Assembly (NCBI RefSeq): GCF_009604405.1
Contig: NZ_WEGK01000002.1
Location: forward strand, 62,001 to 126,000
DNA: 64,000 nt
Direction of reading: 5' to 3'
Origin: Nocardia macrotermitis
GTDB taxonomy: Bacteria > Actinomycetota > Actinomycetes > Mycobacteriales > Mycobacteriaceae
Numbering within the stretch: position 1 is the first letter of the stretch; each line of letters opens with the position of its first letter. Positions 11,248 through 35,137 of the stretch are shown one piece after another. The translations under genes were made by a program, and so were the position numbers. The notes under the pieces were generated by a model. That model had not been told where the DNA came from, made no database searches, and was given only the letters and a program-made list of their open reading frames with translations.

Positions 11248-11256
11248 GTGGATTGC

Positions 11257-15298: not shown

Positions 15299-15439
15299 AT
15301 GAGCGTCGAACTTGTTCCAAGACCGGGGTCGTCCGCGCCTGCGTGTGCGGATTCCGAGTGCGTAACGGTATTCGGCGCAAGAGGTGGTCGGATGACATCG
15401 GGAGACTCGGATTACCTGTGCGGCAGGGGGATTCGATGA
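15299..15439 (+). CDS. Candidate small protein overlapping the permease start
   Basis: A 46-residue ORF beginning at ATG 15299, preceded by GAGGGG, and ending in a TGA that overlaps the next permease's ATG (ATGA). It has three cysteines (residues 16, 21 and 41) and the stretch ACADSECVTVF. The small ORF at 32519-32668, also just upstream of an ABC permease, has SLVELSCRRAESVTVD. The shared VEL...C...A(D/E)S...VTV pattern in two unrelated transporter operons suggests a coupled leader or small transporter-associated protein. The neighbouring bases contain partial repeats, so a chance ORF is possible. Function unknown. Confidence 0.4.
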   Translation: MSVELVPRPGSSAPACADSECVTVFGARGGRMTSGDSDYLCGRGIR

Positions 15440-16503: not shown

Positions 16504-17318
16504 GTGTGCTCGAGGTGCGGCCGCGATTTCGGTGGTCGATCGTATTGCCGACGGTTGTGCTGTTGATCGTGCTCGGGTGGGCGATCGGTCCCGCGTTGTT
16601 CGCCGGGGGCGATCCGTTGCGCGGGGTTCCGGCGGAGAAGTTGCGGGGGCCGAGTGCGGGGCACTGGTTCGGTACCGACAATTTGGGGCGGGATCTTTAT
16701 ACGCGCGTCGTGCACGCGACGCAGTTGTCCGTTACCGCAACGGTTTTCGCGGTAGCGCTGGGTCTGGTCGTGGGTGCGCTGCTCGGGTTGTTCGCGGGGG
16801 CGATCGGGGGCGCGGTCGACGCGGTGATCATGCGGATTGTCGATGTGCTGCTGTCGATTCCGGAACTGTTGAGTGCATTGGTGCTGGTCACGGCGCTGGG
16901 GTTCGGGACGCGGAATGTCGCGATCGCGGTCGGTGTCGCGCTGGTGCCGACGTTCGCGCGGGTGATGCGGGCCGAGGTGGTGCGGGTGCGGCGCGCGCCG
17001 TATGTGGAGGCGGCGTTCGCGGCGGGGGTGCGCTGGCCCGGCGTGCTGGTGCGGCATGTGCTGCGCAATGCGTATGCGCCGGTCGCGGCGTTGGCGGCGG
17101 TGGAATTCGGGGTCGCGGTGCTGGCGGTGTCCTCGCTGAGTTTCCTCGGTTACGGGGCGCGGCCGCCGACGCCGGAATGGGGTTCGCTGATCGCCGACGG
17201 TCGCAGCTATCTGGCCACCGCGTGGTGGCTGACGACGCTGCCCGGGCTGGTCATCGTCGCGGTTGTGTTGTCCGCCCAGCGAATTGGCCGGGCTGTGGCT
17301 GCGGAGAAAGACGGGTGA
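16500..17318 (+). CDS. Dipeptide-type ABC transporter permease (DppC-like)
   Basis: A 272-residue partner permease of the DppC/OppC family. It has [21 protein letters not shown] split as [10 protein letters not shown] and [10 protein letters not shown], the coupling segment [19 protein letters not shown], and the C-terminal [19 protein letters not shown]. Five to six membrane segments are visible. It overlaps the DppB-like gene by 4 bp and precedes the double ATPase by 4 bases, so the transporter genes are tightly packed. No solute-binding protein is encoded in this operon. Confidence 0.9.
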
Positions 17319-17322
17319 GGTG

Positions 17323-18951
17323 ATGACGGACGAAGCGTTGTTGCGGGTCGAGGATCTGCGGGTGGAATATCCCGGCGGTGGCGGACCGGCCGTGGCCGGT
17401 GCGTCGCTGACGGTCTCGCCGGGGGAGACCGTCGCGCTGGTCGGCGAATCCGGTTCGGGCAAGTCGACTTTCGCGCACGCGGTGCTCGGGCTGCTTGGCG
17501 GCGGCACGGTGACGGGCGGGCGGATCACCTTCGCGGGCGAGCGGATCGACGACGCCTCCCCACGCTACCTGCGTGCGATCCGCGGTGCCCGAATCGGGTT
17601 GGTACCACAGGATCCCGGCGTTTCGCTCAATCCCGTGCTGCGGATCGGCGACCAGGTGGCCGAGGCACTGCGCATCCACGGCCGCGCGAACCGCCGCACC
17701 GCGCGGGCGCGGGCGGTGGATATCCTCGCCACGGCCGGACTCGACCGGCCGGAACTGCGCGCACGCCAGTATCCGCAGGATCTCTCGGGTGGTCAGCGGC
17801 AGCGGGTGCTGATCGGTATCGCCCTGGCCTGCGGCCCGGAGCTGGTGATCGCCGACGAGCCGACCAGCGCGCTGGACGTCACCGTGCAGCGCCGCATCCT
17901 GGACCATCTCGCCGCGCGCACCGCCGAATCCGGTACCGCGGTGCTGCTGATCACCCACGATCTGGGTGTCGCGGCCGATCGCGCGGATCGCATCGTGGTG
18001 ATGCGGCGCGGTGAGATCGTCGAATCTGGAAGTACCGCAGTGGTTCTCGGCAATCCGCAGCACGAATACACACGGCGGCTGCTGGATTCGGTGCCGACCC
18101 TGGACGCGCCGACGCGGCCGATCCGCCCTCGAGCCGTGACGCCGCTGCTGTCCGCGACCGGCCTGAGTCGCACCTTCCGGACCGGTTCGCACGGCCGGAT
18201 CACCGCCGTCGATGACGTCACGCTGCACATCGATCGCGGCGAAACCCTCGCGCTGGTAGGTGAATCCGGCTCCGGCAAGAGCACCACCGCGCGCATCCTC
18301 ACGCTGCTCGAACGACCCGATTCCGGCGCGATCACCTTCGATGGGCAGGATGTCGGCGGCCTGCGCGGTGCGCGGCTGCGCGAGTTCCGGCGACGTGTCC
18401 AGGTCGTCTATCAGAATCCCTACGCGTCGCTGAACCCCAAACTGACCATCGGCCAGAGCATCGTGGAACCCTTGCGCGCCTTCGGAATCGGCGATCGACA
18501 GTCACGTCGCGAGCAAGTCGGCGAACTGCTCGAACAGGTGGCCTTGCCGCCGGAGTATCGGGATCGATTGCCCTCGGAATTGTCCGGTGGACAACGCCAG
18601 CGGGTGGCGATCGCACGCGCCCTGGCACTGCGGCCGGAACTGGTGGTGCTCGACGAACCCGTTTCCGCGCTGGATGTTTCGGTCCAGGCGCAGGTTCTCG
18701 AACTGCTCGAGCGGCTGCAACGCGAGCTGTCGCTGAGCTACCTGTTCATCTCGCACGACCTGGCCGTGGTGCGGCGGGTCAGTGATCGCGTCGCGGTGAT
18801 GCGGGCCGGTCGTATCGTCGAAACATCCGGGACCGCAACACTGTTCGATCAACCGACGCATGAATACACCCGCGAACTGCTCGCGGCGGTCCCGGGCGGA
18901 CACGACGAAGAACTCACCCATTCCCGTAGTGAAGGAGTACCTGTGTCATGA
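17323..18951 (+). CDS. Fused double ABC ATPase (DppD-DppF-like)
   Basis: A 542-residue protein with two complete ABC ATPase domains in tandem, equivalent to DppD and DppF. Domain 1 has Walker [10 protein letters not shown] at residues 41-49, signature [11 protein letters not shown] and Walker [13 protein letters not shown]. Domain 2 has Walker [10 protein letters not shown] near residue 313, Q-loop [11 protein letters not shown], signature [11 protein letters not shown] and Walker [13 protein letters not shown]. Each domain ends with a HEYTR segment, normal for this class. One polypeptide can therefore energise both permeases. ATG 17323 follows GGTG; the stop overlaps the next monooxygenase's ATG (ATGA), which ties the transporter to that enzyme. 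Confidence 0.92.
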
Positions 18952-20117
18952 GCACGGCCGAATCCGACAACCAGTGGCGCACCCGGCATGTTCCGCTGTC
19001 GATCCTGGACCTCTCGCCGATCAGCTCGGGATCCACACCGCGCCAAGCGATTCGGAACACCATCGAGCTCGCACAGCGGGCCGAGAGTTGGGGATATCGC
19101 CGATTCTGGGTCGCGGAACATCATTTCGTGCGGGTGGCGAGTTCGTCCCCGGCCACGTTGATCGGCCTGATCGCGGCGGCCACCGAGACGATCCGGGTGG
19201 GTTCGGCGGCCGTGCAGCTCGGGCATCACACCTCGGCGTCGGTGGTGGAGGCCTTCGGCACGATCGACGCGCTGTATCCGGGGCGTCTGGACCTCGGGCT
19301 CGGCCGCTCCGGGCATCGCGCCGACCAGATCCGTTCGGCCGGTGTGCCACCGGTTCCGGCACCGGAGCGGCCCATCGAGGTGCGGGACGGCGTGGTGATT
19401 CCGCCGCCGTTCAGCCCGGGGCAGCTGTTGGATACGACCCGGTTGTCGGCCGGGCTCGCGGCGTTGAAACTGCCTGGCGCGCAAGCGTTGGACTACACCG
19501 AGCAGGTCGAGCAGATCCGCGACTTCCTGGACGGTGGTTACCGCTCCGCCGAAGGTGTTGCGCTGCACGCGGTTCCGGGCGAGGGTGCGGACATCGAACT
19601 CTGGTTGTTCGGCAGCAGCGGCGGCGACAGCGCGCGCCTGGCCGGACGCCTCGGTCTGCCGTTCGCGGCGAACTACCACGTCTCACCGGGCACCATCCTG
19701 GAAACCGTTGCGGCATACCGCGAATCGTTCCAACCCTCGCCCCGCCACCCGAAGCCGTATCTGGTGGTCTCCGCCGACGTCGTCGTCGCACCGGATCACG
19801 CGACGGCCGAACACCTCGCCTCCACCTACGGCCACTGGGTCTACAGCATCCGCAGCGGCGCGGGCGCGGCCGACTACCAGGACCCCGACACCGCCCAACC
19901 CCTCTCCCAACAGCAACAACGCCTGGTCCGCGACCGCACCACCACCCAATTCGTAGGCACCCCCACCGAAGTCGCGGCCCGCCTCACCGCCCTCCAACAA
20001 CTCACCGGCGCAGACGAACTCGTGATAACCAGCGTCACCCACAACCACGAGGACCGCCTCACCTCCCACCGCCTACTGGCCCAGGAATGGGGCCTGTCCC
20101 ACATCCGCGCAGCCTGA
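18948..20117 (+). CDS. Luciferase-like monooxygenase, MsnO8-type
   Basis: A 389-residue LLM flavin-dependent oxidoreductase. The opening [17 protein letters not shown], followed by [37 protein letters not shown] and [15 protein letters not shown], is characteristic of the MsnO8-like group. It carries an insertion ([19 protein letters not shown]) between the barrel halves. It overlaps the ABC ATPase by 4 bp and is the last gene of the second organosulfur block. The last 250 bases have a marked shift to C-ending codons. Probably an FMNH2-dependent oxygenase acting on the compound brought in by the dipeptide-type transporter; this is inferred from gene order only. Confidence 0.87.
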
Positions 20118-20750
20118 CCACCCGCCGCACCCGCACATCCGGGGACTGTGGCGGTGAGTGTGAGGTGGTGTTGGTCGGCGACATGCGGAGGGCATCCATG
20201 CTGCCATCCCCGCCTGCCTTGCGCCGGGCCAGTAGCGCCCGACGGCTCTGTCCGACTTTCGGCTCTGGGGCACATTCGGTGGTCTCGACACGGCCGCCGA
20301 TTCCGCAGGCTCGGGTGCGGCGTGAATGATCTTGTCGTAATGGGTATTTCGTGCAGCGATCGTGATGTGCCGCCCGCGCGGACCACCGGATCGGCGTGAC
20401 CACCGAATGTGGACCAGAGCCGTTATCTGGACAGACTCCACAGCCGGGACGACCGGCGTTACGTGTGCATGCGTTCGGTGTTCTGCCCCTTCGTCTGTCC
20501 CGGTGGAAGTCAGGTTCACCCTGCGAACATGGCCGTCCGGTTGGCATATCGACTCGTGCTGAGAGTGCTGTGGTTAGCGTGTCGATCGGCTGTGGGGCGA
20601 GACTGTCCGCAGCTGCGTTCCATGCTGTTAGCGGATGTGGATGGATTCGTCGGGCGGGACGTAGAACCCTGGGTGGAAGTGGCTGGCCTGCGGGTGGAAA
20701 TCGGGGCAATTCCGTTGACCGGGTTCGCGGGCGGTCGGATATTGGTCACT
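20118..20750. other. Long non-coding stretch with inverted repeats
   Basis: The 633 bases between the MsnO8-type gene and the GT39-like gene show no convincing gene. The main structure is a pair of imperfect 37-bp inverted repeats at 20248-20284 and 20398-20434. A longer frame runs into the GT39-like gene from 20409, but its first 114 residues lack family character and are probably untranslated leader. Confidence 0.5.
20248..20434. repeat. Pair of imperfect inverted repeats
   Basis: Left arm 20248-20284 and right arm 20398-20434 are reverse complements with conserved blocks: CACATTCGGTGGTC pairs perfectly with GACCACCGAATGTG, CGGCTCTGG with CCAGAGCCG, and CTGTCC with GGACAG, separated by a few mismatches. 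The loop is 113 bases. This could be a large hairpin or the trace of a small element with inverted ends. Confidence 0.6.
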
Positions 20751-22601
20751 GTGACGACAGCCGCGATCGTAGTCTCGCCCTCCGATGCCGGTTTCCGGTG
20801 GCAGTTCTGGCGTTCGCCCGGGGATCAGCCGGGGTGGGCACGGCCGGTGTTGTTGCTGGTCGCGGCATTGGCGGGGGTGAGTTATGCGTGGGGGATGGCG
20901 GGGCAGGAGCCGCAGATCTACTACGCGGCCGCGGCTCGGTCGATGGCGATGAACTGGCACAACTTCCTCTTCGCCGCGTTCGATCCGGATGCGGTCATCA
21001 GTGTCGACAAGCTGCCCGGTGCGCTGTGGGTGCAGGCGGTGTCGGTGCACGTGTTCGGGCCGCACGTGTGGGCGCTGGTGCTGCCGCAGGTGGTCGAGGG
21101 CGTGCTGACGGTGCTGCTGCTGTTTCGGGTGGTGCACCGCACGGCGGGGCCGGTGGCGGGGGTGGTGGCAGTTGTCGTGCTGGCGTGTACGCCGGTCGTG
21201 GTGTCGCTGGATCGGGGCAACATTCCGGATACGCTGCTGATTCTGTTGCTGCTGTTGGCCGTTGACCGAACGTTCACCGCGATCGAGAGCGGTCGGACTC
21301 GAAACCTCTGGCTCGCCGGGCTTTTCGTCGGCCTGGCCTTCCAGGTGAAGATGGTGCAGGCGTGGGTCGCGATTCCGCTGCTGGCACTCGCATATCTGAT
21401 CGTGGCGACGAGTTCGGTGCGTCGCAGGCTGGCCGATGTGGCGGTGTTCGGCGTTGTCGCCCTGGTGGTTTCGCTCAGCTGGATGACAATCGTCAGCCTG
21501 ATTCCGGCGAACCGGCGGCCGTATGTCGACGGCGGCGGCGATTCGCTGTTCGAACAGGTCTTCCGATACAACGCGCTGTCCCGCGCCGACAGCGGATTCG
21601 GTGTCGGCGCAGGCAGTTTCGAAGTCGGTGGCCAGCAGAACTATCGCAGCCAACTGGTGCTCGGCCCGGAGAATCGACTCGATCACGTATTCACCGGCGG
21701 TGGTGGACGTTCGGGTGGCTGGCTCGTGCCGCTGGCCCTGATCGCCCTGATCGCGCTGGTGGTCCTCGCCCGACATCGCACCCGGAACCTGCGGGTAGTC
21801 GCCGCACTGATCATCTGGGGCGGCTGGCTGCTGATCCACCTCGCGGTATTCCTGGTCGTCGGCACGGTCAATCCGTACTACCTGGCCGCGCTCGCCCCGC
21901 CGGTCGCCGCGTTGATCGGCTGGGGCGCAGTGGAATTCGCGAAGGCCGAATCGGTGTGGATACGTCGGTGCGGTGTGCTCGCGGTGGTGGCGACGGTGCT
22001 GTACGGCGGGTGGTTGCTCGCGCCCGCGTCACCGGTGGTGCGCTGGACGACCGTCGCGGTAGCGCTCGTCCTGTGTGTCGTCGCGGTGGTCGTGCGCCGG
22101 TATTCGATTGCGGCACTGCTGATCGCCGCACTGGCGGCACCCGCGGTCGCGGCGGCCTCCCTGATCGTCGACGGCTACGGCGCGCTGGACATGCCGTTCG
22201 AGCCCGACGCATCCCGGCGGGTGACACACGATGCGGTCGCCTCCGCGCTGGACAGCGGGCCGAAGCTGATGACCTTGGCGCACAACATGTTCCCCAGCGC
22301 GCACTACCCGATCGTCACCTACACCGGAATCCTCGCCGCACCGTTCATCTTCACCACGGGCGCACCGGTGCCCGCCTTCGGCGGCTTCACCGGATCGGCC
22401 CAGGCGCTCACCACCGCCGACCTGGCCCGGCTCACCGCGCAGGGGCAGATCGGATTCGCACTGGTCACGCCGTCGGATGATGCCCGGGTCCGCTGGATTC
22501 AGCAGTACTGCAAGGCATTACCGCCGGACAAGAACGATTCGGTGCGAGCGTACCTGTGCGGCCCGGTCCGGCAGACGAAACCGCCCGTCACACACAGGTG
22601 A
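20751..22601 (+). CDS. ArnT/GT39-like membrane glycosyltransferase
   Basis: A 616-residue polytopic membrane protein of the ArnT/PMT (GT39, GT-C fold) group. It has about 11-12 membrane segments. Characteristic actinobacterial stretches are AAAARSMAMNWHNFLFAAFDP, VDKLPGALWVQAVSVHVFG, LDRGNIPDTLLILLLLLAVD and FQVKMVQAWVAIP, with a C-terminal soluble part (from about residue 500). Such enzymes transfer a sugar from a polyprenyl phosphate carrier outside the membrane. GTG 20751 was chosen because membrane-protein character starts just after; the exact start is uncertain. The usual acidic pair after the first membrane helix appears as QEP, so activity is not certain. Its last 282 coding bases are repeated at 26343-26624. 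Confidence 0.8.
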   Translation: MTTAAIVVSPSDAGFRWQFWRSPGDQPGWARPVLLLVAALAGVSYAWGMAGQEPQIYYAAAARSMAMNWHNFLFAAFDPDAVISVDKLPGALWVQAVSVHVFGPHVWALVLPQVVEGVLTVLLLFRVVHRTAGPVAGVVAVVVLACTPVVVSLDRGNIPDTLLILLLLLAVDRTFTAIESGRTRNLWLAGLFVGLAFQVKMVQAWVAIPLLALAYLIVATSSVRRRLADVAVFGVVALVVSLSWMTIVSLIPANRRPYVDGGGDSLFEQVFRYNALSRADSGFGVGAGSFEVGGQQNYRSQLVLGPENRLDHVFTGGGGRSGGWLVPLALIALIALVVLARHRTRNLRVVAALIIWGGWLLIHLAVFLVVGTVNPYYLAALAPPVAALIGWGAVEFAKAESVWIRRCGVLAVVATVLYGGWLLAPASPVVRWTTVAVALVLCVVAVVVRRYSIAALLIAALAAPAVAAASLIVDGYGALDMPFEPDASRRVTHDAVASALDSGPKLMTLAHNMFPSAHYPIVTYTGILAAPFIFTTGAPVPAFGGFTGSAQALTTADLARLTAQGQIGFALVTPSDDARVRWIQQYCKALPPDKNDSVRAYLCGPVRQTKPPVTHR

Positions 22602-25665: not shown

Positions 25666-26307
25666 ATGCCGACCACGAAGACACTGCGTGAGGGGTCAAC
25701 CCAGAAGCGGGCCGCCATACTCTCGGCCGCGCGGGAACTGTTTCTCGCCCAGGGGTTCGACCGGTCCAGCGTCGATGCGGTCGCCGCCCGCGCCGAGGTG
25801 TCCAAACGGACGGTCTATGACTATTTCGGTGATAAGCGCACATTGCTGCAAGCAGTCGTCGACACAGTCGGCCGGTCGCTGACCGACACGATCCGCCGCA
25901 CACTCGACGACACCCTCACCGGCCTTCCGGACGGCGCTGATCTCGAAGAGCGCCTGATCACCTTCTCGATGCGTATCGCCACCGATATGCTCGGCTCGGC
26001 GGAGTACGCAACGCTGGTTCGATTGGTGCGCACGGAATCCGGCCACCTACCGTACCCCGGCTACAACCCGATGGCCGATACTCCCGAGGAAGCAATCGCC
26101 GAGCGGTTTGCCGCCTTCGCCGCGGCTGGGCTACTCGACATTCCCGACCCCCGGCTCGCGGTCGACCAATTCCTCGTCCTGGCGTTCGGGGTCGCCCTCA
26201 ACAAGTTCGGCTCGGCGAATGCCGCGGAGGATCCTCGCGTCGAGCCGCTCGTAGTCGAGGGCGTGCGCACCTTTCTCAGGGCGTTCCGGGCTGGTCCGGT
26301 GCGATGA
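25666..26307 (+). CDS. TetR-family regulator of the exporter cassette
   Basis: A 213-residue TetR repressor. The helix-turn-helix is at about residues 15-60 (KRAAILSAARELFLAQGF, VDAVAARAEVSKRTVYDYF, KRTLLQAVV). The C-terminal domain matches the AefR-like/TetR_C group (ATDMLGSAEYATLVRLVRTE). It is divergent from the MFS-monooxygenase pair and close to a dyad operator, so it most likely represses both until a ligand binds. Its stop overlaps an ATG (26304) that starts a chimeric remnant of the GT39-like gene. Confidence 0.88.
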   Translation: MPTTKTLREGSTQKRAAILSAARELFLAQGFDRSSVDAVAARAEVSKRTVYDYFGDKRTLLQAVVDTVGRSLTDTIRRTLDDTLTGLPDGADLEERLITFSMRIATDMLGSAEYATLVRLVRTESGHLPYPGYNPMADTPEEAIAERFAAFAAAGLLDIPDPRLAVDQFLVLAFGVALNKFGSANAAEDPRVEPLVVEGVRTFLRAFRAGPVR

Positions 26308-26624
26308 AACAGTGGGTCTGTGAGGGTTTCCAGCCGGGGTCTTACACCGGAATCCTTGCCTCACCGTTCATCTTCACCACGGGCGCACCGGTGCCCGCCT
26401 TCGGCGGCTTCACCGGATCGGCCCAGGCGCTCACCACCGCCGACCTGGCCCGGCTCACCGCGCAGGGGCAGATCGGATTCGCACTGGTCACGCCGTCGGA
26501 TGATGCCCGGGTCCGCTGGATTCAGCAGTACTGCAAGGCATTACCGCCGGACAAGAACGATTCGGTGCGAGCGTACCTGTGCGGCCCGGTCCGGCAGACG
26601 AAACCGCCCGCCACACACAGGTGA
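26304..26624 (+). pseudogene. Chimeric remnant of the GT39-like gene
   Basis: A 106-residue frame begins at ATG 26304, overlapping the TetR stop. Its first 13 residues (MKQWVCEGFQPGS) are new; the rest, from YTGIL, repeats the last 93 residues of the GT39-like protein. It lacks all membrane helices and the catalytic part, so it cannot work as a glycosyltransferase. It may be translated by coupling to the TetR gene. The duplicate hairpin follows at 26604-26631. Confidence 0.8.
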
Positions 26625-26654: not shown

Positions 26655-27881
26655 CTATTTCGAGGTGGGAGACCAATCCTCGAGGTAGGCGCGGTACGTC
26701 CCGAACGGCAGCGAGACATCGTAGACCAGCGCCCCGGACGGCGAGAACTCCGAAATATGCGGCGCCATACCCCAACCCACCAGGGTGTTCCCATTGGGCA
26801 GCCCCTGCGCGTCACCCATTGCCATGGCTACCAGTCCGCTGGGGTGAGTCTGGTTGCGCACCAACGTCGCTCGATGCGTGGCGGTATCCAGATGGATCCA
26901 CTGCACACTCGACAGACCCAGATTCTGCGAACCGGTGGAATTGTTGTTGAACAGCCGAATCGTATCGGGCCCAGCGAATTCCGCGTCGTGCTGGAAGCCG
27001 AACTCCACGCCCTGACCCAGTGCGAAGGACGAACGCTTACCGCCGAGCTGCCAGCGGATCTTGCCGGTGTGGATGTCGACGTCGTACACCGTGGACGTAT
27101 CGCGCATCGAAATCAGCAGGTTCCCTTGCGGATCCAGCGAGATCGAGTTCATGTGGTACGGGTCGTACACCTTGGAACCGGGCGTCGAGTTGCTCGACGT
27201 GGTGTCGGTCAGCGGGACGTGTTGCGCGGCACTCCACCGGAACAGCACCTTCTTGCTCGCGACATCCACCACCGAGGCGACGGTGTCGTACATCCTGCCG
27301 TTCTTCGGGCCGCCGACCGCGCTGAGATCAGCGTCGACCTCGTGGTACGCGGTGATCAGCGCGCGCCCGTCGGGCGTCAGCCGGAACTCGTGCACGTCCG
27401 AGCTCAAACCCGGTCCGGCATCGAGTGTTTCGATGATGTGCCCGTGCTCGTCGGCGATGTAGTCCTCACCCGTGCCGTGCCCGCCGACGGTGCTGCCCTG
27501 CCACCAGGTGAGCACGCGCTTGCCCTGATAGGTCTGCGCCCGGAAGTTCGACACGTCCTGCCCCTTGGGCGGGTCGTATCGCCACACCTGGTGCCCGGCC
27601 TTGTCCATCACCACGTTCGCGGGCGCGGCCTGCGGCACACCCGAGAGCGTCTGCCCCAGCCCTGGCACCAGCGCGGCCGCGCTGACCCCGGTCGTGTAGT
27701 AGATGTACCCCGGACTCGCGCCGGATTTGTTCACATCGACCGTATAGTTCAGCGCGCCCACCGGGGCACTGGGCAACGGCCCGGCAGCGGCGAGCGGCGC
27801 AAGTGCGCAGGTCCCGAGCCCAACGGCGGCCACGGCCAGTGCGGCGGCGCCGCGACGGATACGGTGCGAATTCCGGATCAT
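26655..27881 (-). CDS. Secreted arylsulfotransferase-family protein
   Basis: A 408-residue exported protein of the arylsulfotransferase (ASST-like) family. Residues 1-33 form a signal peptide (arginine-rich start, AAVGLGTCALAPLAAAG). The body shows beta-propeller-type repeats and the family stretches VWRYDPPKGQDVSNFRAQTY, LTWWQGSTVGGHGTGEDYI, DPYHMNSISLDPQGNLLISM, KIRWQLGGKRSSF and FGFQHDAEF. The paired motifs N-S-I and HDAEF are conserved in the family. Some relatives move sulfate between phenols without PAPS; many actinobacterial ones are untested. A ribosome site AGGAAT precedes ATG 27881. It sits between the duplicated segment and the AprA-like operon, and may connect to sulfate ester use outside the cell. 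Confidence 0.8.
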   Translation of the reverse strand: MIRNSHRIRRGAAALAVAAVGLGTCALAPLAAAGPLPSAPVGALNYTVDVNKSGASPGYIYYTTGVSAAALVPGLGQTLSGVPQAAPANVVMDKAGHQVWRYDPPKGQDVSNFRAQTYQGKRVLTWWQGSTVGGHGTGEDYIADEHGHIIETLDAGPGLSSDVHEFRLTPDGRALITAYHEVDADLSAVGGPKNGRMYDTVASVVDVASKKVLFRWSAAQHVPLTDTTSSNSTPGSKVYDPYHMNSISLDPQGNLLISMRDTSTVYDVDIHTGKIRWQLGGKRSSFALGQGVEFGFQHDAEFAGPDTIRLFNNNSTGSQNLGLSSVQWIHLDTATHRATLVRNQTHPSGLVAMAMGDAQGLPNGNTLVGWGMAPHISEFSPSGALVYDVSLPFGTYRAYLEDWSPTSK

Positions 27882-28039: not shown

Positions 28040-30733
28040 TCACCCCAAAGCTCGTCGCGCGTAAGCCCGGACGTCCGCGTCGGAATCGTCGATGGCCTGC
28101 TGGAGTGCATGGCGGGCGGCGGGGTTGTCGGGCCAGAGGCCGAGGGTGAGGACGGCGGCCTTGCGGACGTCGGGGTGGGGGTCGGCGAGGGCCGTGTGCA
28201 GCGGGGTGGCGGCGAGGCCGGGACCCAGGGCGGTCCAGCCGCGGACCGCGCCTTCGCGGATCTGCCAGGCCGAATCGGTGAGAGCGGTGGACAGGACGGG
28301 GGCGTCGGCGGGGTCGCCGAGCCGGGACAGCGCGGTGAGAGCGGCGGCGCGGACCAGTGGATCGCGGTCGGCGGTCAGTTCGCGCACGGCGTCCACGCCG
28401 CCCCGGCCGATGGTGGCGAGGCCCTGAGCTGCGGCGATGCGGACCTCGCGGTTCTCGTCGTGGGCGGCGGTGGTCAGGGCGGTCCAGTCGTCGATCGAGA
28501 CCAGGGCGCGCACCCCTTCGATGCGGACGCGGTGGTCGTCGTCCACCACGGCCTTGCCGAACAGTTCCGCCGAACCCGTGCGCAGCGCCCGCAGCAGATC
28601 CACCACACCGGCGCGGACGAGCGGATCGGGTGATCCCGCATGATCCGTGAGACCTGTTGTGGCGGGCAGGATTTCGACAAGCTCACGCAGACCGGCGAGG
28701 GCGGCGGCGCGGACCGGGGCGGCCGGATCGGCGAGGGCGGCGATCAACGCGTCGGCGAAACCGTCCGGTGTGCCCTCGGTCAGGACCGAGACGGCGGTGG
28801 CGCGCACGCGGGGATCGGCGTCGGTGAGGAAAACGTGCAGGTCCGTGAGTGAAGGGGCGTCCAGCGTCAGCAACTGCGCGATGGCCGGGGCAACCTCGGT
28901 GGCGGCGTCGGCGACCGCTGTGGTCCGAGGCCGTACGACGCTGTCGTCCGCCGCGGTCGTGCGCGGCGGGCCGGTGATCAGATCGGGCTGTGCGACCGGT
29001 TCGGCGGTCTCGGCGGCGCTGAATCGTCCGGCGAGTTCGGGGACCGGCACGAAATACGGTGCGACAGGGCGTTTCAGGAATTCCATCGTCCCGCCCGCGC
29101 TCTTGCGCAGGTTCAGGTGATAGTGCCACTGCTCGTCGTCGCGCTCGGGCAGATCGGCGCGTTCGTGGTAGAGGCCCCAACGAGATTCGGTGCGGGTCAG
29201 CGACGAACGCGCGGCCATTTCGGCGCAGTCGCGGATGAAACTCACTTCCGCGCAACGCATCAGCTCGTGCGGTGTGGTCGCACCCATCTCGGCGATCTCG
29301 TGGGTCATCCGCTCGAACGTCTCGATCGCCAGGGACAGTTTGGTCGCCGTCTTCGGCGGCGCCACATAGTCGTTGACGAAGCGGCGGAGTTTGTACTCCA
29401 CCTGCTGCTGCGGCGGCCCTTCCGGATCGCGCAGCGGACGGTAGATCAGCTCGTGCGCGGCGGTGAGCTGGTCGGACGGAAGTTCTTGCGGTGCAGCGAC
29501 ATCGGCACGGATACCTGCGGCATGTTCACCGGCCAGATCGCCGTACACGAACGCGCCGATCATGTAGTTGTGCGGCACACAGGCCAGATCCCCGGCCGCG
29601 TACAGTCCGGGAACGGTCGTGCGGGCATGCTCGTCCACCCACACACCGGACGCGGAATGTCCACTGCACAAACCGATCTCGGAGATGTGCATCTCGATAT
29701 CGTGGGTCCGATAGTCGTGACCCCGGTTGGCGTGGAAGGTGCCGCGGGTGGGCCGCTCGGTGGTGTGCAGAATTCCCTCGAGCGCGGTAAGCGTCTCATC
29801 GGGCAGATGAGAAACCTTCAAATAGATTGGCCCTCTGGCAGATTCGATCTCGTTCTTGACCTCACTCATCATCTGCCCGGACCAGTAGTCCGAATCCACG
29901 AACCGCTCACCACCGGCGTTCACCTGATACCCGCCGAACGGATTGGCCACATACGCGCACGCCGGACCGTTGTAATCCTTGATGAGCGGGTTGATCTGGA
30001 AACATTCGATCCCCGAGAGCTCCGCACCCGCGTGATAGGCCATCGAATACCCGTCACCGGCATTGGTCGGATTCTCGTACGTGCCATACAGATATCCCGA
30101 CGCGGGCAGCCCGAGCCGACCGCACGGCCCGGTCGCCAGGATCACCGCCTTCGCGCCCACGGCGACGAATTCCCCGGTGCGCGTGTTCAATGCGGCCGCG
30201 CCCACCGCACGCCCGCCGTCGGTGAGCACCCGCACCGGCATCAACCGATTCTCGATCCGGATCTTCTCGCGCATCTTCCGTTGTCGCAGTACGCGATACA
30301 GCGCCTTCTTGACGTCCTTGCCCTCGGGCATCGGCAGCACGTACGACCCCGAGCGGTGCACCCGCCGCACCGCGTACTCGCCGTACTCGTCCTTCTCGAA
30401 CTTCACGCCGTACCGCTCGAGCCGCTGCACCATCGCGAAGCCGCGCGTCGCGGTCTGATAGATGGTGCGCTGGTTGACGATTCCGTCGTTGGCGCGGGTG
30501 ATCTCCGCGACGTAGTCCTCCGGTTCGGCCTTCCCCGGAACCACGGCATTGTTGACCCCGTCCATCCCCATCGCCAGCGCGCCCGAATGCCGCACGTGCG
30601 CCTTCTCCAGCAGCAGCACGTTCGCGCCGTGCTCGGCGGCGGTGAGCGCGGCCATGGTTCCGGCGGTGCCGCCACCGATCACCAGCACATCGCAGTCGAG
30701 CCGGACGGTGTCGGCCAGGTCGGGAATCTTCAT
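28040..30733 (-). CDS. AprA-like FAD flavoprotein fused to HEAT repeats
   Basis: An 897-residue protein. Residues about 1-600 are a fumarate-reductase/AprA-type flavoprotein: FAD fold VIGGGTAGTM (19-28), then HSGALAMGMDGVNNA, EDYVAEITRANDGIVN, AVILATGPCGRLG, and the C-terminal FAD contact GLYAAGDLACVPHNYMIGAF. Residues about 625-897 hold around eight HEAT/PBS-lyase-type repeats (ADPRVRATAV, DPAAPVRAAAL, DENREVRIAAA, DPHPDVRKAAV, DSDADVRAYA). In adenylylsulfate reductase, AprA pairs with the ferredoxin AprB; an AprB-like ferredoxin is encoded in the same operon. It ends an operon with a GntR regulator and a sulfonate-type ABC importer. I infer a redox enzyme working on the imported compound. 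True APS reductase activity is not implied: the organism is not a sulfate respirer and the protein is divergent. Confidence 0.82.
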   Translation of the reverse strand: MKIPDLADTVRLDCDVLVIGGGTAGTMAALTAAEHGANVLLLEKAHVRHSGALAMGMDGVNNAVVPGKAEPEDYVAEITRANDGIVNQRTIYQTATRGFAMVQRLERYGVKFEKDEYGEYAVRRVHRSGSYVLPMPEGKDVKKALYRVLRQRKMREKIRIENRLMPVRVLTDGGRAVGAAALNTRTGEFVAVGAKAVILATGPCGRLGLPASGYLYGTYENPTNAGDGYSMAYHAGAELSGIECFQINPLIKDYNGPACAYVANPFGGYQVNAGGERFVDSDYWSGQMMSEVKNEIESARGPIYLKVSHLPDETLTALEGILHTTERPTRGTFHANRGHDYRTHDIEMHISEIGLCSGHSASGVWVDEHARTTVPGLYAAGDLACVPHNYMIGAFVYGDLAGEHAAGIRADVAAPQELPSDQLTAAHELIYRPLRDPEGPPQQQVEYKLRRFVNDYVAPPKTATKLSLAIETFERMTHEIAEMGATTPHELMRCAEVSFIRDCAEMAARSSLTRTESRWGLYHERADLPERDDEQWHYHLNLRKSAGGTMEFLKRPVAPYFVPVPELAGRFSAAETAEPVAQPDLITGPPRTTAADDSVVRPRTTAVADAATEVAPAIAQLLTLDAPSLTDLHVFLTDADPRVRATAVSVLTEGTPDGFADALIAALADPAAPVRAAALAGLRELVEILPATTGLTDHAGSPDPLVRAGVVDLLRALRTGSAELFGKAVVDDDHRVRIEGVRALVSIDDWTALTTAAHDENREVRIAAAQGLATIGRGGVDAVRELTADRDPLVRAAALTALSRLGDPADAPVLSTALTDSAWQIREGAVRGWTALGPGLAATPLHTALADPHPDVRKAAVLTLGLWPDNPAARHALQQAIDDSDADVRAYARRALG

Positions 30734-30760
30734 CAGCGGTGCTCCAAGCGGGAGATCGGT

Positions 30761-31531
30761 TCAGGAGTGGGCCGGGGCCGGATCGTCCGAACGATCCAGG
30801 GCGGCAAGGATTTCGGTGCGCAGCGCGGTGCGGTCGACGTCCGGGTCGCGGGGCCGGGGGATGTCCAGCAGCGCGAGCAGCGGGCGCGCGGCGCGGTCCA
30901 GGACGGCGATGCGGTCGCCCAGCAGCAGCGCCTCGTCCACATCGTGCGTGACGAATACGACCGTGGTGGGATGCGCCCGCCAGGTGTCCACGAGCAGGCG
31001 CTGCATGGTGGCGCGGGTGGGTGCGTCCAGGGCGCCGAACGGCTCGTCCATCAGCACCGCGCGGGGCGCACCGGCCAGGCCGCGGGCGAGTTGGACGCGC
31101 TGGCGCATCCCGCCGGACAGATCCTTGGGCAGGTAGCCGCCGAATCCGGTCAGACCGACCTCGTCGATCCAGCGTTCGGCGCGTTCGCGGCGTCCGGCGC
31201 GGGGTTCGCCGCGCAGCCGCAGGGCCAGCTCGACATTCGAGCGGACCGTGCGCCAGGGGAGTAACGCGTTGTCCTGGAACACCATTGCGCGATCACGCGA
31301 CGGTCCGGTAACCGGTTCGCCATCGGCGAGGACGCGCCCGGAGCGCGCGGGCAGCAGACCGGCCAGCGCGCGCAGCACCGTCGATTTGCCGCACCCGGAC
31401 GGCCCGGTCAGCACGAGGATCTCGCCGGGCCGGATATCGAGGTTCAGTCCGCTGATCACCGGCGTTCCGGAGTAACGCAGCTCCACCCGATCCAGCTGGA
31501 GATCCATTGCGGTACTTGCTATTTCGCTCAT
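30761..31531 (-). CDS. SsuB/TauB-type ABC transporter ATPase
   Basis: A 256-residue ATPase of the nitrate/sulfonate/taurine importer class. Walker A GPSGCGKST is near residue 43, Q-loop VFQDNALLPWRTV, signature DLSGGMRQRVQLARGL, Walker B VLMDEPFGALDAPTR, and switch His FVTHDVDEAL. All are canonical for SsuB/TauB. ATG 31531 overlaps the permease stop by 4 bp; 27 bases separate its stop from the AprA-like gene. It should energise uptake of a small anionic organosulfur compound. Confidence 0.93.
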   Translation of the reverse strand: MSEIASTAMDLQLDRVELRYSGTPVISGLNLDIRPGEILVLTGPSGCGKSTVLRALAGLLPARSGRVLADGEPVTGPSRDRAMVFQDNALLPWRTVRSNVELALRLRGEPRAGRRERAERWIDEVGLTGFGGYLPKDLSGGMRQRVQLARGLAGAPRAVLMDEPFGALDAPTRATMQRLLVDTWRAHPTTVVFVTHDVDEALLLGDRIAVLDRAARPLLALLDIPRPRDPDVDRTALRTEILAALDRSDDPAPAHS

Positions 31532-32427
31532 CTCGTCTCCGCTCCCGCGCGAGGCAACCAGGCGGTGGCTCGGCGGCCCAGCAGTTCCACCGCCGCTGAG
31601 GTCGCGAAGCCCAGCACCCCGATGGTGATGATGCCGACGAACACCCCCGGATAGTCCACGATCGTGTACGCCTGCCAGGTGCGATAGCCGACACCCAGTC
31701 GGCCCGAGATCATTTCGGCCGACACCACGCAGATCCAGGCCACGCCGATCCCCACCGACAGCCCGCCGAACACCCCGGGCAGACTGCCGGGCAGCACGAC
31801 GCGCCACAGCACGTCCCATCGGCTGCCGCCGAGCGTGCGCACCGAATCCTCCCAGATCACCGGTAGCGCCCGCACCGCGTGCCGGGTACTGACCATGATC
31901 GGGAAATACGCGGCCAGAAAGGTGATGAACACGATTCCGGCCTCATCGGTCGGGAACAGCAGAATCGCCACCGGCACGATCGCGATCGCCGGAATCGGCC
32001 GGGCCAGCTCGGTCAGCGGCCCGAAGACATCCGCGAACAGCCGCGAACGTCCCAGTGCCACACCGGAAGCCACGCCCGCGAGCGCGGCCAGCACGAACCC
32101 GCTCAGGATCCGGATCATCGATTGCCCCAGATCCAGCCAGTACGTCCCGGTCCCGAGCTGGTGCCCGAACGCTCGCACGATCTGCGTCACCGTCGGCAAG
32201 GTATCGAACCGCACCCAGACCCGAATATGATTGGCGGTCAACAGCTGCCAGGCGACAACCACCGCGATGACCGAAACCAGCCGAATGACCCGCGACCGCC
32301 AAACCCGGCCGCCCTCACCACGATCCGATGCCCCTTCGGATTTGCCCGTGGTCGCCGCATCCGATCCCGCGACGACCTCGGAACCGGCAGCACTCGGGTC
32401 GAGCCGAGCGGATATCGTCGCGCTCAT
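31528..32427 (-). CDS. SsuC/TauC-type ABC transporter permease
   Basis: A 299-residue permease with six membrane segments and a 40-residue polar N-terminal tail. Marks include WVRFDTLPTVTQIVRAFG, the first-helix region TYWLDLGQSMIRILSGFVLA, and the coupling loop EDSVRTLGGSRWDVLWRVVLPG (shown here split as EDSVRTLGG and WRVVLPGSLPG). The end FVGIITIGVLGFATSAAVE is typical of SsuC. It overlaps a tiny ORF upstream and the ATPase downstream by 4 bp each. Confidence 0.92.
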   Translation of the reverse strand: MSATISARLDPSAAGSEVVAGSDAATTGKSEGASDRGEGGRVWRSRVIRLVSVIAVVVAWQLLTANHIRVWVRFDTLPTVTQIVRAFGHQLGTGTYWLDLGQSMIRILSGFVLAALAGVASGVALGRSRLFADVFGPLTELARPIPAIAIVPVAILLFPTDEAGIVFITFLAAYFPIMVSTRHAVRALPVIWEDSVRTLGGSRWDVLWRVVLPGSLPGVFGGLSVGIGVAWICVVSAEMISGRLGVGYRTWQAYTIVDYPGVFVGIITIGVLGFATSAAVELLGRRATAWLPRAGAETR

Positions 32428-32522
32428 CGTTCACCCCCGCGGCCTGTTTTGCCGTGACGTGCAGAGCTGACGGCGACAGGCTGTGCCGCGCCGGGCGCCA
32501 CGCTCGGAATCGACTGGTTCAT
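32424..32522 (-). CDS. Candidate 32-residue small protein (second of two)
   Basis: ATG 32522, preceded by GAGGGCGGA, opens a 32-codon frame (MNQSIPSVAPGAAQPVAVSS, then ARHGKTGRGGER) ending in a TGA that overlaps the permease ATG (ATGA). Its own ATG overlaps the stop of the small ORF upstream in the same way. The peptide is basic at the end and has no cysteine. The unbroken chain of overlaps argues for translation; the product's role is unknown, and it may serve only to couple translation. Confidence 0.45.
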   Translation of the reverse strand: MNQSIPSVAPGAAQPVAVSSARHGKTGRGGER

Positions 32523-32668
32523 GGCTGTCCGCCCTCGATCGGCTTCGTTGTATCAACCGTCACGGATTCGGCTCTCCTGCAACTGAGTTCGACCAGGCTC
32601 GAGCGGAGTATGCCGCGGCCGGCGCGTCGGACCCGGTCGGTCGCCGCGTTCCTGATTCGTTCGCTCAC
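32519..32668 (-). CDS. Candidate 49-residue small protein (first of two)
   Basis: GTG 32668 overlaps the solute-binding-protein stop (GTGA), and the frame ends at a TGA overlapping the next ORF's ATG. The peptide begins VSERIRNAATDRVRRAGRGI and continues LRSSLVELSCRRAESVTVD, then TTKPIEGGQP. It is basic with a single cysteine (residue 30). The stretch resembles part of the small ORF at 15299-15439 (VEL...C...ADSECVTV), which also precedes an ABC permease. A leader or small transporter partner is possible; chance is not excluded. Confidence 0.5.
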   Translation of the reverse strand: MSERIRNAATDRVRRAGRGILRSSLVELSCRRAESVTVDTTKPIEGGQP

Positions 32669-34092
32669 GGCTGCACCTCGGCGATCGCCTGGTCGTAGGA
32701 CAGCTGAGTGCTGCCGGGATGCGCGGTCAGATACCGTTGTGCCGCAGCCGATGTGGTGAACGGGAGGTAGGTCTGTCCGTCGTGGATCCACAGGGCCTTG
32801 TCGGCGAACCAGCGGGTGCCCAGTTCGGCGTCGGGGACGTAGGCCGCGCGCACCTTGCGGCCTTGTGCGCGAGCGGCTTTCAGCGCGTGCAGCAGGCTGG
32901 TCGGGTCGGCGGCAGGCTGGGTGGTCTCCTGGCCGTCGAACCAGATCTCCCCGGCGAGAGCGGGATCGGTGACCGGGCGGTTCCCGGTCGGATCGGTACC
33001 CGTGATCGGCGCGGGGTTGCCGAAGTTCGCGACGGCCTTGGCATAGTCGACGCCCCGCTCGCTGAACGCCTTTCGCAGCGGCGCGTCGTCGACGAACTTG
33101 TCCACATCCAGATCGGCGAAGTCACCGATCGACTTCAGATACGGGATATCGCCCTTGAAAGCCTGGATGAGCTGCGATTTGAGCGGTGTGTCGAAGGTGG
33201 TTCCGCCGGGCCCGTTGTAGAGGTACACCACCTCGGCGGGCAGTCCGGTGTCGTGGGCGACCGATTCGGCGGCCTCCAGCGGTTTCGCGTGCAGGAAATC
33301 GGTCGCGTCCAACTGCGCTTGCAGGAATGCGTCCAGCACCTCGGGATGCTGTTTCGCGTAGTCCCGCCGCGCGACGACGCCGTGGAAGGTCGGGACATTC
33401 AATTCCGCACCGTCGTAAAGCAATTGCGCCTTGTTCTGGAAAACCAGCAACCCCGGCCACGCGACGAACTGCGAAAGCGCCTGCACCTGACCGGAATCCA
33501 GCGCCGACGCCCCGATCTGCGGCTGCTGATTGAGAATCCGCACACCGGATTTCGGATCGATCCCGGCCCGGCTCAGTCCTTGACGCAACGTCCCGTCACC
33601 GGCCGAACCGACACTCGCCGACACCTTCTTCCCGGCCAGCTCCTGCAACTCGTGAATCGGCGAACCAGGCGGCACCACAACCATGTTCAGCGATCCCTTG
33701 GGCTGATACCCGGTGACCGACACCAGTTCGGTGCGCGACCGCTCACTGGCCTGCGTCCGCGAACCGTTGATCAGCAGCGGGTAATCACCCATCGACCCGA
33801 TATCGATCTTCTCCGCGACCATCTGCGCGGTGATCGGCGCACCGGTGTCGTAATCCTGCCATTCGACCTGATACTTCGGCCCGCCCGCGGCGGTCAGTCT
33901 CGCCAGTCGCTGTTCGAGAAAACCCTTGGCACGCAACAGGGTTCCGGCGGTGACGGTATTGATGGTCTTGGACTGATAGCCCACCACGACCTTGACGGTA
34001 TTCCCCGAATCCGCCGCATCGAGCGAGCATCCGGCGGCGATCAGAGCCATGGCGGACAAACCCGCGATAATGCGGGCAGGACGATATTTCAT
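32665..34092 (-). CDS. ABC transporter solute-binding lipoprotein with NosL-like C-terminus
   Basis: A 475-residue exported lipoprotein: basic start, hydrophobic core and lipobox ALIAAGC with Cys22. Residues about 35-350 match the SsuA/TauA/NrtA-like binding fold (VVGYQSKTINTVTAGTLL, MVAEKIDIGSMGDYPLLING, LAGKKVSASVGSAGDGTL, HGVVARRDYAKQHPEVLDAF). Residues about 385-475 resemble NosL: RKVRAAYVPDAELGTRW, FADKALWI, TYLPFTTSAAAQRYLTAHPG and QLSYDQAIAEV correspond to the end of NosL proteins, which bind copper(I) in nitrous oxide reductase maturation. The fusion is unusual; the extra domain has no obvious metal-binding Cys pair. ATG 34092 follows GAGGAATTCG-like sequence. It is 49 bases from the ferredoxin gene. 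Confidence 0.85.
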   Translation of the reverse strand: MKYRPARIIAGLSAMALIAAGCSLDAADSGNTVKVVVGYQSKTINTVTAGTLLRAKGFLEQRLARLTAAGGPKYQVEWQDYDTGAPITAQMVAEKIDIGSMGDYPLLINGSRTQASERSRTELVSVTGYQPKGSLNMVVVPPGSPIHELQELAGKKVSASVGSAGDGTLRQGLSRAGIDPKSGVRILNQQPQIGASALDSGQVQALSQFVAWPGLLVFQNKAQLLYDGAELNVPTFHGVVARRDYAKQHPEVLDAFLQAQLDATDFLHAKPLEAAESVAHDTGLPAEVVYLYNGPGGTTFDTPLKSQLIQAFKGDIPYLKSIGDFADLDVDKFVDDAPLRKAFSERGVDYAKAVANFGNPAPITGTDPTGNRPVTDPALAGEIWFDGQETTQPAADPTSLLHALKAARAQGRKVRAAYVPDAELGTRWFADKALWIHDGQTYLPFTTSAAAQRYLTAHPGSTQLSYDQAIAEVQP

Positions 34093-34141
34093 TCGAATTC
34101 CTCGGAATTCGCCTCGCGCGGAGGCGATCTGGGTGCGCGGA

Positions 34142-34369
34142 TCAGCGCAACAGGAAGGGCATATTGACGGTGACGGCGCCGGTGGGACAGCGGGCGGCGC
34201 ACGGGCCGCAGTACCAACACTCGTCCACGTGCATGTACGCCTTGCCGTTGTCCGGGTTGATCGCCAGGGAGTCGAGCGGACAGATCTCGACACACAGGGT
34301 GCACCCCTGAATGCACAGGGATTCGTCGATGGTCACCGGAACGTCGGTGCGCTGGTTCACCAGGGCCAT
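34142..34369 (-). CDS. AprB-like 2x[4Fe-4S] ferredoxin
   Basis: A 75-residue ferredoxin with eight cysteines in two clusters. The first motif is CIQGCTLCVEICP (Cys19, 23, 26, 30) with three rather than two residues after the first Cys. The second is CWYCGPCAARCP (Cys51, 54, 57, 61). The spacing and the CW-C-C--CP second motif recall AprB, the electron-transfer subunit of adenylylsulfate reductase (CWEC..C...CP). AprB is about twice as long because of a C-terminal tail; that tail is absent here. ATG 34369 directly abuts the GntR stop. It likely passes electrons to or from the AprA-like flavoprotein encoded at the other end of the operon. Confidence 0.88.
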   Translation of the reverse strand: MALVNQRTDVPVTIDESLCIQGCTLCVEICPLDSLAINPDNGKAYMHVDECWYCGPCAARCPTGAVTVNMPFLLR

Positions 34370-35137
34370 TCAGATCAGCCTCCAATCGCTGCTTTCCGCG
34401 GGCCGAACGAGGCTGCCGCGCATGGTGATTCGATCTCCGCGGAACCGGATGTACTCCAGATCCACCGGGCGGCCGTCGTCGAGCCGGGTCAGTCGTTCCA
34501 GCAGCAGTAGCGCACCGTCCTCGGGCATCTGCAGGGCCGCCGCGGAATGCGGGTCGGCGGTGATCGCCTCCAGCACCAGATCCGCGGAACCCAGCGGGCC
34601 ACCGCCGATTTCCTCGATCAGGGCGAACACGTCGTTGCGCTCGAGATCCCGGGTGATGACCTGGGCCCCGATATCCGGCGCGAGATAGGTCAGGTCCAGG
34701 CTCAGCGGCAGTTCGCCGAGGAAACGCAGCCGCTCGATGTAGACGGCCTGCTCACCCGGATTCAGGTCCAGGCGACGGGCCACGGCGGGCGGCGGGGTCA
34801 CCGTGGTGGCCACCCGCACCTCGTTGCGGACCTCGCCGTGCTCGCGCAGGGTTTCCTTCAACCCGCGCAACGTATCGATACCGTGCTCGTACTTGCGTTG
34901 CGCGACATGGGTGCCCACCTTCGGCGCGCGCTCGATCAGCCCCTCGTCCTTGAGCAGCGCGAGGGCGTCGCGCACGGTGTTGCGGGAGACCGCGAATTCG
35001 GCGGCGAGCTCGCCCTCACTGGGCAGGGTGTGCGCGAAGGTCTCCGCGTGGATCTGCTGACGCAGCACATCGGCCACCTGACGGGCCCGATCGGCACGGC
35101 GGACAGGGGCGCGCAATGGTGTCGGTTGCGATGACAA
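34370..35137 (-). CDS. GntR/HutC-family (UTRA) regulator
   Basis: A 255-residue regulator. The winged helix-turn-helix lies at about residues 15-85 (TLPSEGELAAEFAVSRNTVRDAL, LKDEGLIERAPKVGTHVAQ), and the effector-binding UTRA domain at about 100-250 (EQAVYIERLRFLGELPLSLDLTY; LLLLERLTRLDDGRPVDLEYI). Such proteins sense small effectors. TTG 35137 was chosen because GGAAGGAG precedes it by seven bases; longer frames exist upstream. It is the first gene of the operon, so it probably autoregulates and controls the whole AprAB-like transport operon. No Cys-rich sensor is seen. Confidence 0.88.
   Translation of the reverse strand: MSSQPTPLRAPVRRADRARQVADVLRQQIHAETFAHTLPSEGELAAEFAVSRNTVRDALALLKDEGLIERAPKVGTHVAQRKYEHGIDTLRGLKETLREHGEVRNEVRVATTVTPPPAVARRLDLNPGEQAVYIERLRFLGELPLSLDLTYLAPDIGAQVITRDLERNDVFALIEEIGGGPLGSADLVLEAITADPHSAAALQMPEDGALLLLERLTRLDDGRPVDLEYIRFRGDRITMRGSLVRPAESSDWRLI

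Follow-up and report, generated by a model that had tools for sequence, protein, structure and literature searches.

Why would a cell place a flavoprotein and a ferredoxin that resemble the two subunits of adenylylsulfate (APS) reductase, AprA and AprB, in one operon with a sulfonate-type importer? The question is raised by a 64,000-nucleotide stretch of the 8.5-Mb Nocardia macrotermitis genome (contig NZ_WEGK01000002.1, positions 62,001 to 126,000; the whole stretch is called the window here, and its own numbering is used), in which six co-directional genes occupy positions 28040–35137 of the minus strand. In order of transcription they encode a GntR/UTRA regulator, an AprB-like ferredoxin, a solute-binding lipoprotein (SBP), an ATP-binding cassette (ABC) permease, an ABC ATPase and an AprA-like flavoprotein. 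This operon had been listed in a sequence-only reading of the window, and all of its genes and coordinates proved exact. The cluster is real, widespread and conserved, and it is neither an APS reductase nor a fumarate reductase. It probably encodes a ferredoxin-fed, sulfonate-linked reductase that is tied to the importer and that may be responsible for the asf phenotype discussed below.

A conserved cluster in Proteobacteria and Actinobacteria

The gene neighbourhood was compared in three sets of loci: 80 proteobacterial loci, the best of 581 confirmed ones and all of them close to the Cupriavidus query; the top 30 of 84 actinobacterial loci; and a set of 114 loci, mostly from Proteobacteria, that adds plasmid and lower-scoring loci to the 80. 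For the plasmids, 14 of 51 matches were opened, one of which carried no annotation, and the lower-scoring part comprises 20 chosen places, namely 18 low-scoring loci (L156–L169, L171–L174) together with L170 and L175.

In all 80 proteobacterial loci a ferredoxin gene comes after the flavoprotein gene, and 77 of them have a GntR gene in front of it; a gene for a HEAT-repeat protein is present in 77 as well, the three misses being contigs that end early. Across the 114 loci the ferredoxin is always found, within 2.6 kb in 112 cases and further along the same cluster in L003 and L196, accompanied by HEAT (111), SBP (103), permease (101), ATPase (101), GntR (103) and DUF971 (PF06155; 87) genes. 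In the actinobacterial set, HEAT repeats occur in all 30 loci, fused in frame to the flavoprotein in 26 and encoded by the next gene in four, and at least one importer gene lies within 4.7 kb in every case. Chance neighbourhood was rejected because the gene set recurs as a cluster in 114 loci, and in proteobacterial and actinobacterial loci alike. The stable, transport-coupled flavoprotein/ferredoxin unit proposed from the window alone is thus borne out by co-occurrence.

Counted with the cut-off of NCBIfam model NF006131, the flavoprotein occurs in 84 of 301 genomes from the taxonomic family to which the window belongs (26 of 29 in the same genus among the matches listed, source genome included), in 61 of 198 genomes of the family of a Pseudomonas genome, and in 89 of 249 genomes of the family of a Cupriavidus genome; in the latter's genus the count is 14 of 60. 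Exactly one flavoprotein exceeds the cut-off in each of ten genomes or records reached via named loci, and in the source genome. At least 6522 relatives were found at E ≤ 1e-20, and the window's protein is 92% identical to its Nocardia jiangxiensis homologue.

Not every part of the cluster is equally fixed. Seven of the 80 proteobacterial loci that are not cut by a contig end (L007, L009, L016, L018, L060, L073, L076) retain flavoprotein, ferredoxin and HEAT genes and have no SsuA-type importer in reach, so these three form the core, while the importer can be lost or lie elsewhere. The regulator varies too: GntR in most loci, Crp/Fnr in four alphaproteobacterial plasmids, and in Leptolyngbya a LysR gene beside the flavoprotein gene. 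HEAT repeats are encoded by a separate gene in the proteobacterial and cyanobacterial loci examined, and four actinobacterial loci (L102–L105) have GntR, flavoprotein, HEAT, ferredoxin and SBP as separate genes. Among the taxa displayed in the tree, these four are sister to the fused clade, which fits a single fusion of two adjacent genes as the origin of the flavoprotein–HEAT protein. What marks the actinobacterial variant of the cluster is the fusion to HEAT repeats, combined with an order in which the ferredoxin gene leads and the flavoprotein gene closes.

In the Nostoc locus L196 (8719–12161), genes for two HAD hydrolases, a methyltransferase, a GNAT protein and a VOC protein lie between the flavoprotein gene and the ferredoxin and HEAT genes. 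This pathway-like row may hint at the compound handled.

Family and active site of the flavoprotein

The flavoprotein gene of the window (28040–30733, minus strand) encodes 897 residues, with a flavin adenine dinucleotide (FAD) part at about residues 1–566 (FAD_binding_2, Succ_DH_flav_C) and, over the last 300 or so residues (about 600–897), HEAT repeats (HEAT_2, 2.2e-31) that had been missed in the sequence-only reading. The protein is a full-length member of NF010374 (PRK13800; 1679 bits over residues 1–896, cut-off 1196) and also scores 868 bits against NF006131 (PRK08275; cut-off 587). Both models are catalogued without a function and carry the automatically assigned name fumarate reductase/succinate dehydrogenase flavoprotein subunit, and both cover the flavoprotein only, with the gene cluster and its partners outside them. 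In the open-licence literature, covered for most papers through listings, we found no function for the flavoprotein–HEAT family, which is no proof that none is in print. A fold prediction for the whole flavoprotein (mean predicted local distance difference test score 63.5) was good for the HEAT part and unreliable for the flavin domain, and it supports no claim made here.

Taken at face value, the automatic name implies an ordinary fumarate reductase or succinate dehydrogenase, and the protein does match the superfamily domains PF00890 and PF02910. Against TIGR01812, which models those enzymes, it reaches 150 bits for a cut-off of 567, and no quinone subunit is found among the annotated neighbours of the loci examined. 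We aligned the active sites of 145 flavoproteins, mostly from Beta- and Gammaproteobacteria but including Actinobacteria and two Cyanobacteria. In this alignment 215 columns are at least 98% identical, a degree of conservation that suggests one well-defined reaction. The catalytic and substrate residues of succinate dehydrogenase we take to be the histidine of its QFHP motif and the arginine of its RYAP motif; the former position is Asn248 in all 145 proteins, and the latter has no counterpart (the window has GERFVDSDYWSG). A fumarate or succinate enzyme is therefore scarcely credible and, judged by the active site, the name fumarate reductase is wrong for this family. L-aspartate oxidase was rejected as well, since the protein falls far under the cut-off of that model. 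Family scores, site residues and the linkage to the importer all speak against the outcome that the sequence-only reading had named as refuting it, an ordinary fumarate reductase or L-aspartate oxidase with no stable tie to the transporter.

The same reading had called the protein pair AprAB-like, but membership of AprAB itself is not supported, and a true APS reductase was rejected. The flavoprotein scores 130 bits against the AprA model TIGR02061 (cut-off 641.75), and the APS-reductase_C domain (PF12139) is absent among its Pfam matches up to E 0.1. Its closest solved relative is the alpha subunit of an archaeal, APS-reductase-like 3'-phosphoadenylylsulfate (PAPS) reductase (8a8o_A, E 3e-55), ahead of Archaeoglobus fulgidus AprA (1jnr_A, 1e-28) and succinate dehydrogenase (2e-23). 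In AprA, the sulfate group of APS is held by Asn-74, Trp-234, Arg-265 and His-398, and Arg-265 also lies near the phosphate and ribose (PMC2211403). Asn-74 is retained as N61 in all 145 flavoproteins, whereas Arg-265 and Trp-234 are replaced throughout by Leu250 and Tyr219. H359 is invariant and aligns with the histidine of the GGH sequence in the archaeal PAPS reductase; the segment of AprA that holds His-398 lies outside the alignment. We read this as a site whose sulfonyl-holding part is partly retained and whose nucleotide part is lost. Since Arg-265, the phosphate contact of AprA, is leucine in all of the proteins, the substrate is probably not a nucleotide.

The PAPS reductase of Methanothermococcus thermolithotrophicus (MtPAPSR, 8a8o) offers the closest comparison. 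It, too, joins an FAD-binding alpha subunit of the fumarate-reductase superfamily to a beta subunit with two [4Fe-4S] clusters, and it shares the active-site Asn and His. However, identity is 28%, the site Arg and Trp are replaced in the flavoprotein, and the specificity loop of the latter carries a nearly invariant insertion (GSYVLPMPEG in the window). The genetic context also differs, as the flavoprotein is tied to an importer and not to ATP sulfurylase and APS kinase.

An AprB-like ferredoxin

The ferredoxin gene (34142–34369, minus strand), whose ATG directly abuts the stop codon of the regulator gene, encodes 75 residues with eight cysteines that match Fer4_7 and other Fer4 families. The second cluster motif, CWxCxxCxxxCP, reads CWYCGPCAARCP in the window; the sequence-only reading had recognized it as AprB-type, and the Cupriavidus homologue agrees, its CWYCMPCERDCP aligning with CWECYSCIKICP of a solved APS reductase beta subunit (3gyx_B). 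The protein thus has the eight cluster cysteines of AprB and the Trp of the CWxC motif; in AprB, Trp-B48 takes part in electron transfer (PMC2211403). It scores 31 bits against the AprB model TIGR02060 (cut-off 135.65) and lacks the long C-terminal tail of AprB, a subunit of 150–166 residues. Its structure matches include beta subunits of APS and PAPS reductases (that of MtPAPSR is eleventh, E 8e-8), with polyferredoxins such as FwdF scoring higher. The likeness of the pair to AprAB therefore lies in the subunit plan, the Trp-containing beta motif and Asn-74, and the differences in the low model scores, the two substituted site residues, the missing tail and the APS-reductase_C domain that was not found.

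A sulfonate-type importer

All three parts of an Ssu/Tau-type importer are encoded on the minus strand of the operon. The SsuA/TauA-type lipoprotein (32665–34092; 475 residues; NMT1, PF09084; lipobox LIAAGC) is followed, after the widest gap in the operon (237 bp), by a permease of the Ssu/Tau/Nrt type (31528–32427; 299 residues; BPD_transp_1, PF00528, 7.6e-21), whose gene overlaps by 4 bp that of the ATPase (30761–31531; 256 residues; ABC_tran, PF00005, 4.1e-30). When the predicted fold of the SBP was compared with known structures, SsuA and TauA ranked first, in keeping with the sulfonate-type import proposed earlier. The curated sulfonate and taurine cut-offs are not reached (SBP 122 bits against 163.5, ATPase 218 against 357 for the taurine model, permease 113 against 342); the top NCBIfam models of the permease, all under cut-off, are nitrate, Sao, taurine and sulfonate permeases. 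In Nostoc, the upstream SBPs are annotated as sulfonate-binding.

Besides these scores and the link to flavoprotein and ferredoxin, an extra C-terminal alpha/beta domain of the SBP (residues 381–472 or thereabouts; 32665–33000 in the window) sets the operon apart from SsuABC and TauABC. The domain, which may be NosL-like, occurs from Nocardia to Pseudomonas and has no Pfam match, and the SBP fold comparison stopped short of it.

Two other kinds of cargo have to be weighed. Pfam labels the SBP as NMT1/THI5-like, and in Rhizobium sp. N324 a thiC–thiO–thiS–thiazole synthase row lies directly upstream of the cluster (L204, 3580–7352), as would suit salvage of a thiamine precursor or another heterocycle by a member of the NMT1/THI5 superfamily. 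This link is confined to a single locus, and we consider the idea very improbable. A sulfur substrate other than a sulfonate, such as an S-sulfonate, a thiosulfate-like compound or another oxyanion fed by the same electron chain, has more in its favour and is still improbable. In 11 loci the GntR gene has a gene for a sulfate-binding protein less than 1 kb away (one of the 11 was checked against family models), and four of these loci (L007, L009, L016, L018) have no SsuA-type importer in reach. Moreover, by analogy with the APS reductase mechanism (PMC2211403), attack of FAD on a sulfonyl sulfur would be easiest with a good leaving group. The SBP itself speaks for a sulfonate, as its fold and sequence are closest to SsuA/TauA and not to sulfate or thiosulfate proteins.

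In the Caballeronia-group loci (L007, L009–L016, L018; about 5200–6300), the sulfate-binding protein gene is divergent and about 0.9 kb from the GntR gene.

Electron supply and accessory genes

Genes that could feed the ferredoxin are attached to part of the clusters. FdxA is found in 21 of the 114 loci and Fpr, a ferredoxin-NADP reductase, in 20; each of the 18 low-scoring loci has both, within the cluster or next to it, as do L002 (a Variovorax plasmid) and L004 (a Methylobacterium plasmid), and L170 and L175 have neither. On the tree, the loci with these genes occupy at least two separate places. In A. caldus, FdxA is accompanied instead by a 1153-residue oxidoreductase with glutamate-synthase-beta (GltD) and FNR-like parts. 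Because two unrelated donors are attached in this way, we infer that electrons probably run into the flavoprotein, which would be their acceptor and the catalytic end of the chain.

A YeiH-type "sulfate exporter" gene is present in 15 of the 114 loci, 14 of them among the 18 low-scoring ones and one in Leptolyngbya. The Leptolyngbya locus also has a TauE/SafE gene, and TauE-family genes lie near the cluster in Aquabacterium and Rhizobium; the TauE/SafE queries were drawn from the four matching loci themselves. We count these genes, together with the sulfate-binding protein genes near GntR, in favour of sulfite as a product. Mrp/ApbC, of an iron-sulfur carrier family, is encoded in nine of the 114 loci, and together with the HEAT domain and DUF971 it may aid the loading of iron-sulfur clusters.

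Relation to asfRABC

The sequence-only reading had put the gene set forward as an undescribed system. This goes too far: the protein family is catalogued, albeit without a function, and a cluster with the same parts has been published. The asfRABC genes of Pseudomonas putida S-313 encode a reductase and ferredoxin, a binding protein, an ABC transporter and a LysR regulator, and transposon mutants in asfA lose the use of aromatic but not of aliphatic sulfonates (PMC4267179). AsfA and AsfB of Cupriavidus metallidurans (Rmet_4334/5) are likewise termed reductase–ferredoxin (PMC2864759). asfA has been recorded in Variovorax, Cupriavidus, Burkholderia, Pseudomonas, Rhodococcus, Williamsia and others, and primer names in the same paper suggest a product that spans asfA into asfB (PMC9694294). 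In their accessible portions, three further papers only cite or restate the asf work (PMC3506598, PMC4070957, PMC10441942), and in those of the omics reports on Rhodococcus IGTS8 (PMC8557817) and Gordonia NB4-1Y (PMC7661421) no mention of the gene set was seen.

Reductase, ferredoxin, binding protein and ABC transporter stand together in one cluster in both systems, and if A, B and C are read as flavoprotein, ferredoxin and SBP, the gene order matches in 71 of the 80 proteobacterial loci and in 20 of 24 others. Several genera in which asfA has been recorded also carry the flavoprotein family. In contrast, the 18 low-scoring loci all lack this order, the window has the ferredoxin first and the flavoprotein last, and the regulator is of the GntR/UTRA type rather than the LysR-type AsfR, both in the window and, ahead of the flavoprotein gene, in 77 of the 80 loci. 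An insensitive, single-query search, which overlooked the annotated LysR gene near the cluster in Aquabacterium (L203), put LysR-type genes no more than 2.5 kb from the cluster in six of the 80 loci; in L033 and L046 one is divergent beside the cluster's GntR gene. Judged by parts, order and genera, and short of proof, AsfA more probably than not belongs to the flavoprotein family.

The pair could instead be the reductase arm of an oxygenase system, as published for AsfA and AsfB, with flavoprotein and ferredoxin supplying electrons to an SsuD-like monooxygenase for the O2-dependent cleavage of aromatic sulfonates. The published asfRABC parts, the asfA mutant phenotype, the shared gene order and the name given to the C. 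metallidurans proteins all accord with such a role. So does a Rhodococcus member (P0104) named 'Putative reductase (alkanesulfonate metabolism)', as do the FMN-dependent monooxygenase genes that adjoin L001 and L051 and the LysR-type gene beside the GntR gene in L033 and L046. Yet none of the oxygenase types queried (luciferase-type, acyl-CoA-dehydrogenase-type and Rieske) is a constant member of the cluster in 105 loci. In known members of the superfamily the flavin subunit is itself catalytic, and Fpr could reduce the ferredoxin directly without any flavoprotein. The differences from asf noted above (gene order in the low-scoring loci, GntR in place of LysR, likeness that is not by sequence) also tell against this role, which we regard as somewhat unlikely.

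A proposed route of reductive desulfonation

We favour, at a little short of even confidence, the view that the operon imports a sulfonate and reduces it with electrons from the ferredoxin, probably releasing sulfite. The SBP would deliver a sulfonate-type anion to the permease and ATPase, and the GntR/UTRA protein would sense the compound. Electrons would pass from NADPH via Fpr to FdxA where these are present, or from another donor elsewhere, and on through the AprB-like ferredoxin to FAD. The reduced FAD, aided by Asn61 and His359 of the APS-reductase-type site, would then attack or reduce the sulfonyl group of the imported compound. An attack by N5 of FAD on sulfur has been proposed for MtPAPSR (PMC10322725); carried over by analogy, it would yield sulfite from a sulfonate with a good leaving group, and an activated or aryl sulfonate, or an S- or N-sulfonate, would thus fit best. 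The sulfite would be assimilated or, in some lineages, exported via YeiH/TauE-type products.

Several observations weigh against this proposal. Cleaving an unactivated C–S bond is hard chemistry. No FdxA is in reach in 93 of the 114 loci or in the window operon, so the electron donor there would lie elsewhere, and most loci have neither electron-chain nor exporter genes. Amino acid composition is a further difficulty. Proteins that cells make for desulfonation when sulfur is scarce can contain little Met and Cys, as noted for Gordonia (PMC7661421). Met and Cys contents were compared by means of simple gene calls, which gave 132 genes from 20 source-genome stretches (mean 2.6%), and, for Pseudomonadota, with 445 flanking genes. 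The regulator (0.7%), SBP (1.05%), permease (1.3%) and HEAT part (0) of the operon are low, but the FAD domain has 4.4% in the window and 5.2% in Pseudomonadota, at the 93rd percentile, where only SBP and HEAT are very low. The enzyme may therefore not be a starvation protein.

The sequence-only reading had also paired the operon with oxygenases at the left of the window. That block (946–20117) is an organosulfur oxygenase and transport region that has lost Met and Cys to an extreme degree: the luciferase-like open reading frames at 14122–15195 and 18948–20117 have neither residue after the start codon, five other proteins stand at 0.2–0.6% and two at 1.3–1.6%. As most of these proteins are nearly free of Met and Cys and the flavin domain is not, the tie to the left block is weak.

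More broadly, and more tentatively than for the operon itself, we suggest that O2-independent, ferredoxin-driven reductive desulfonation may be one more catalytic branch of the AprA/fumarate-reductase superfamily, at work in thousands of bacteria, most of them aerobes: an importer would supply the compound, an NADPH–ferredoxin chain would reduce FAD to release sulfite, and HEAT, DUF971 and Mrp proteins would build the clusters.

Regulator and neighbouring genes

The first gene of the operon (34370–35137, minus strand) encodes a 255-residue, HutC-type GntR/UTRA regulator (PF07702, 1.7e-29; PF00392, 3.3e-17). As read from the sequence, it starts with TTG, preceded by the ribosome site GGAAGGAG.

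Directly 3' of the operon and on the same strand lies a gene for an arylsulfotransferase-like protein (26655–27881; PF14269, 5e-51) with a signal-like N-terminus. A 106-residue open reading frame on the plus strand (26304–26624) nearly copies the C-terminus of a 730-residue membrane protein encoded 4 kb away (20409–22601), apparently as a partial gene duplication.

Implications

Sulfonates make up a large share of soil sulfur. asfA serves as a marker for counting users of aromatic sulfonates and, in the accessible portions of the asf literature, is described only as a reductase. If the cluster is AsfAB, asf would be given a mechanism that can be tested, and a HEAT partner and an electron chain would join its parts. 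If reductive cleavage is correct, aerobic bacteria would possess an O2-free route of sulfonate use, and the APS-reductase fold would acquire a new reaction.

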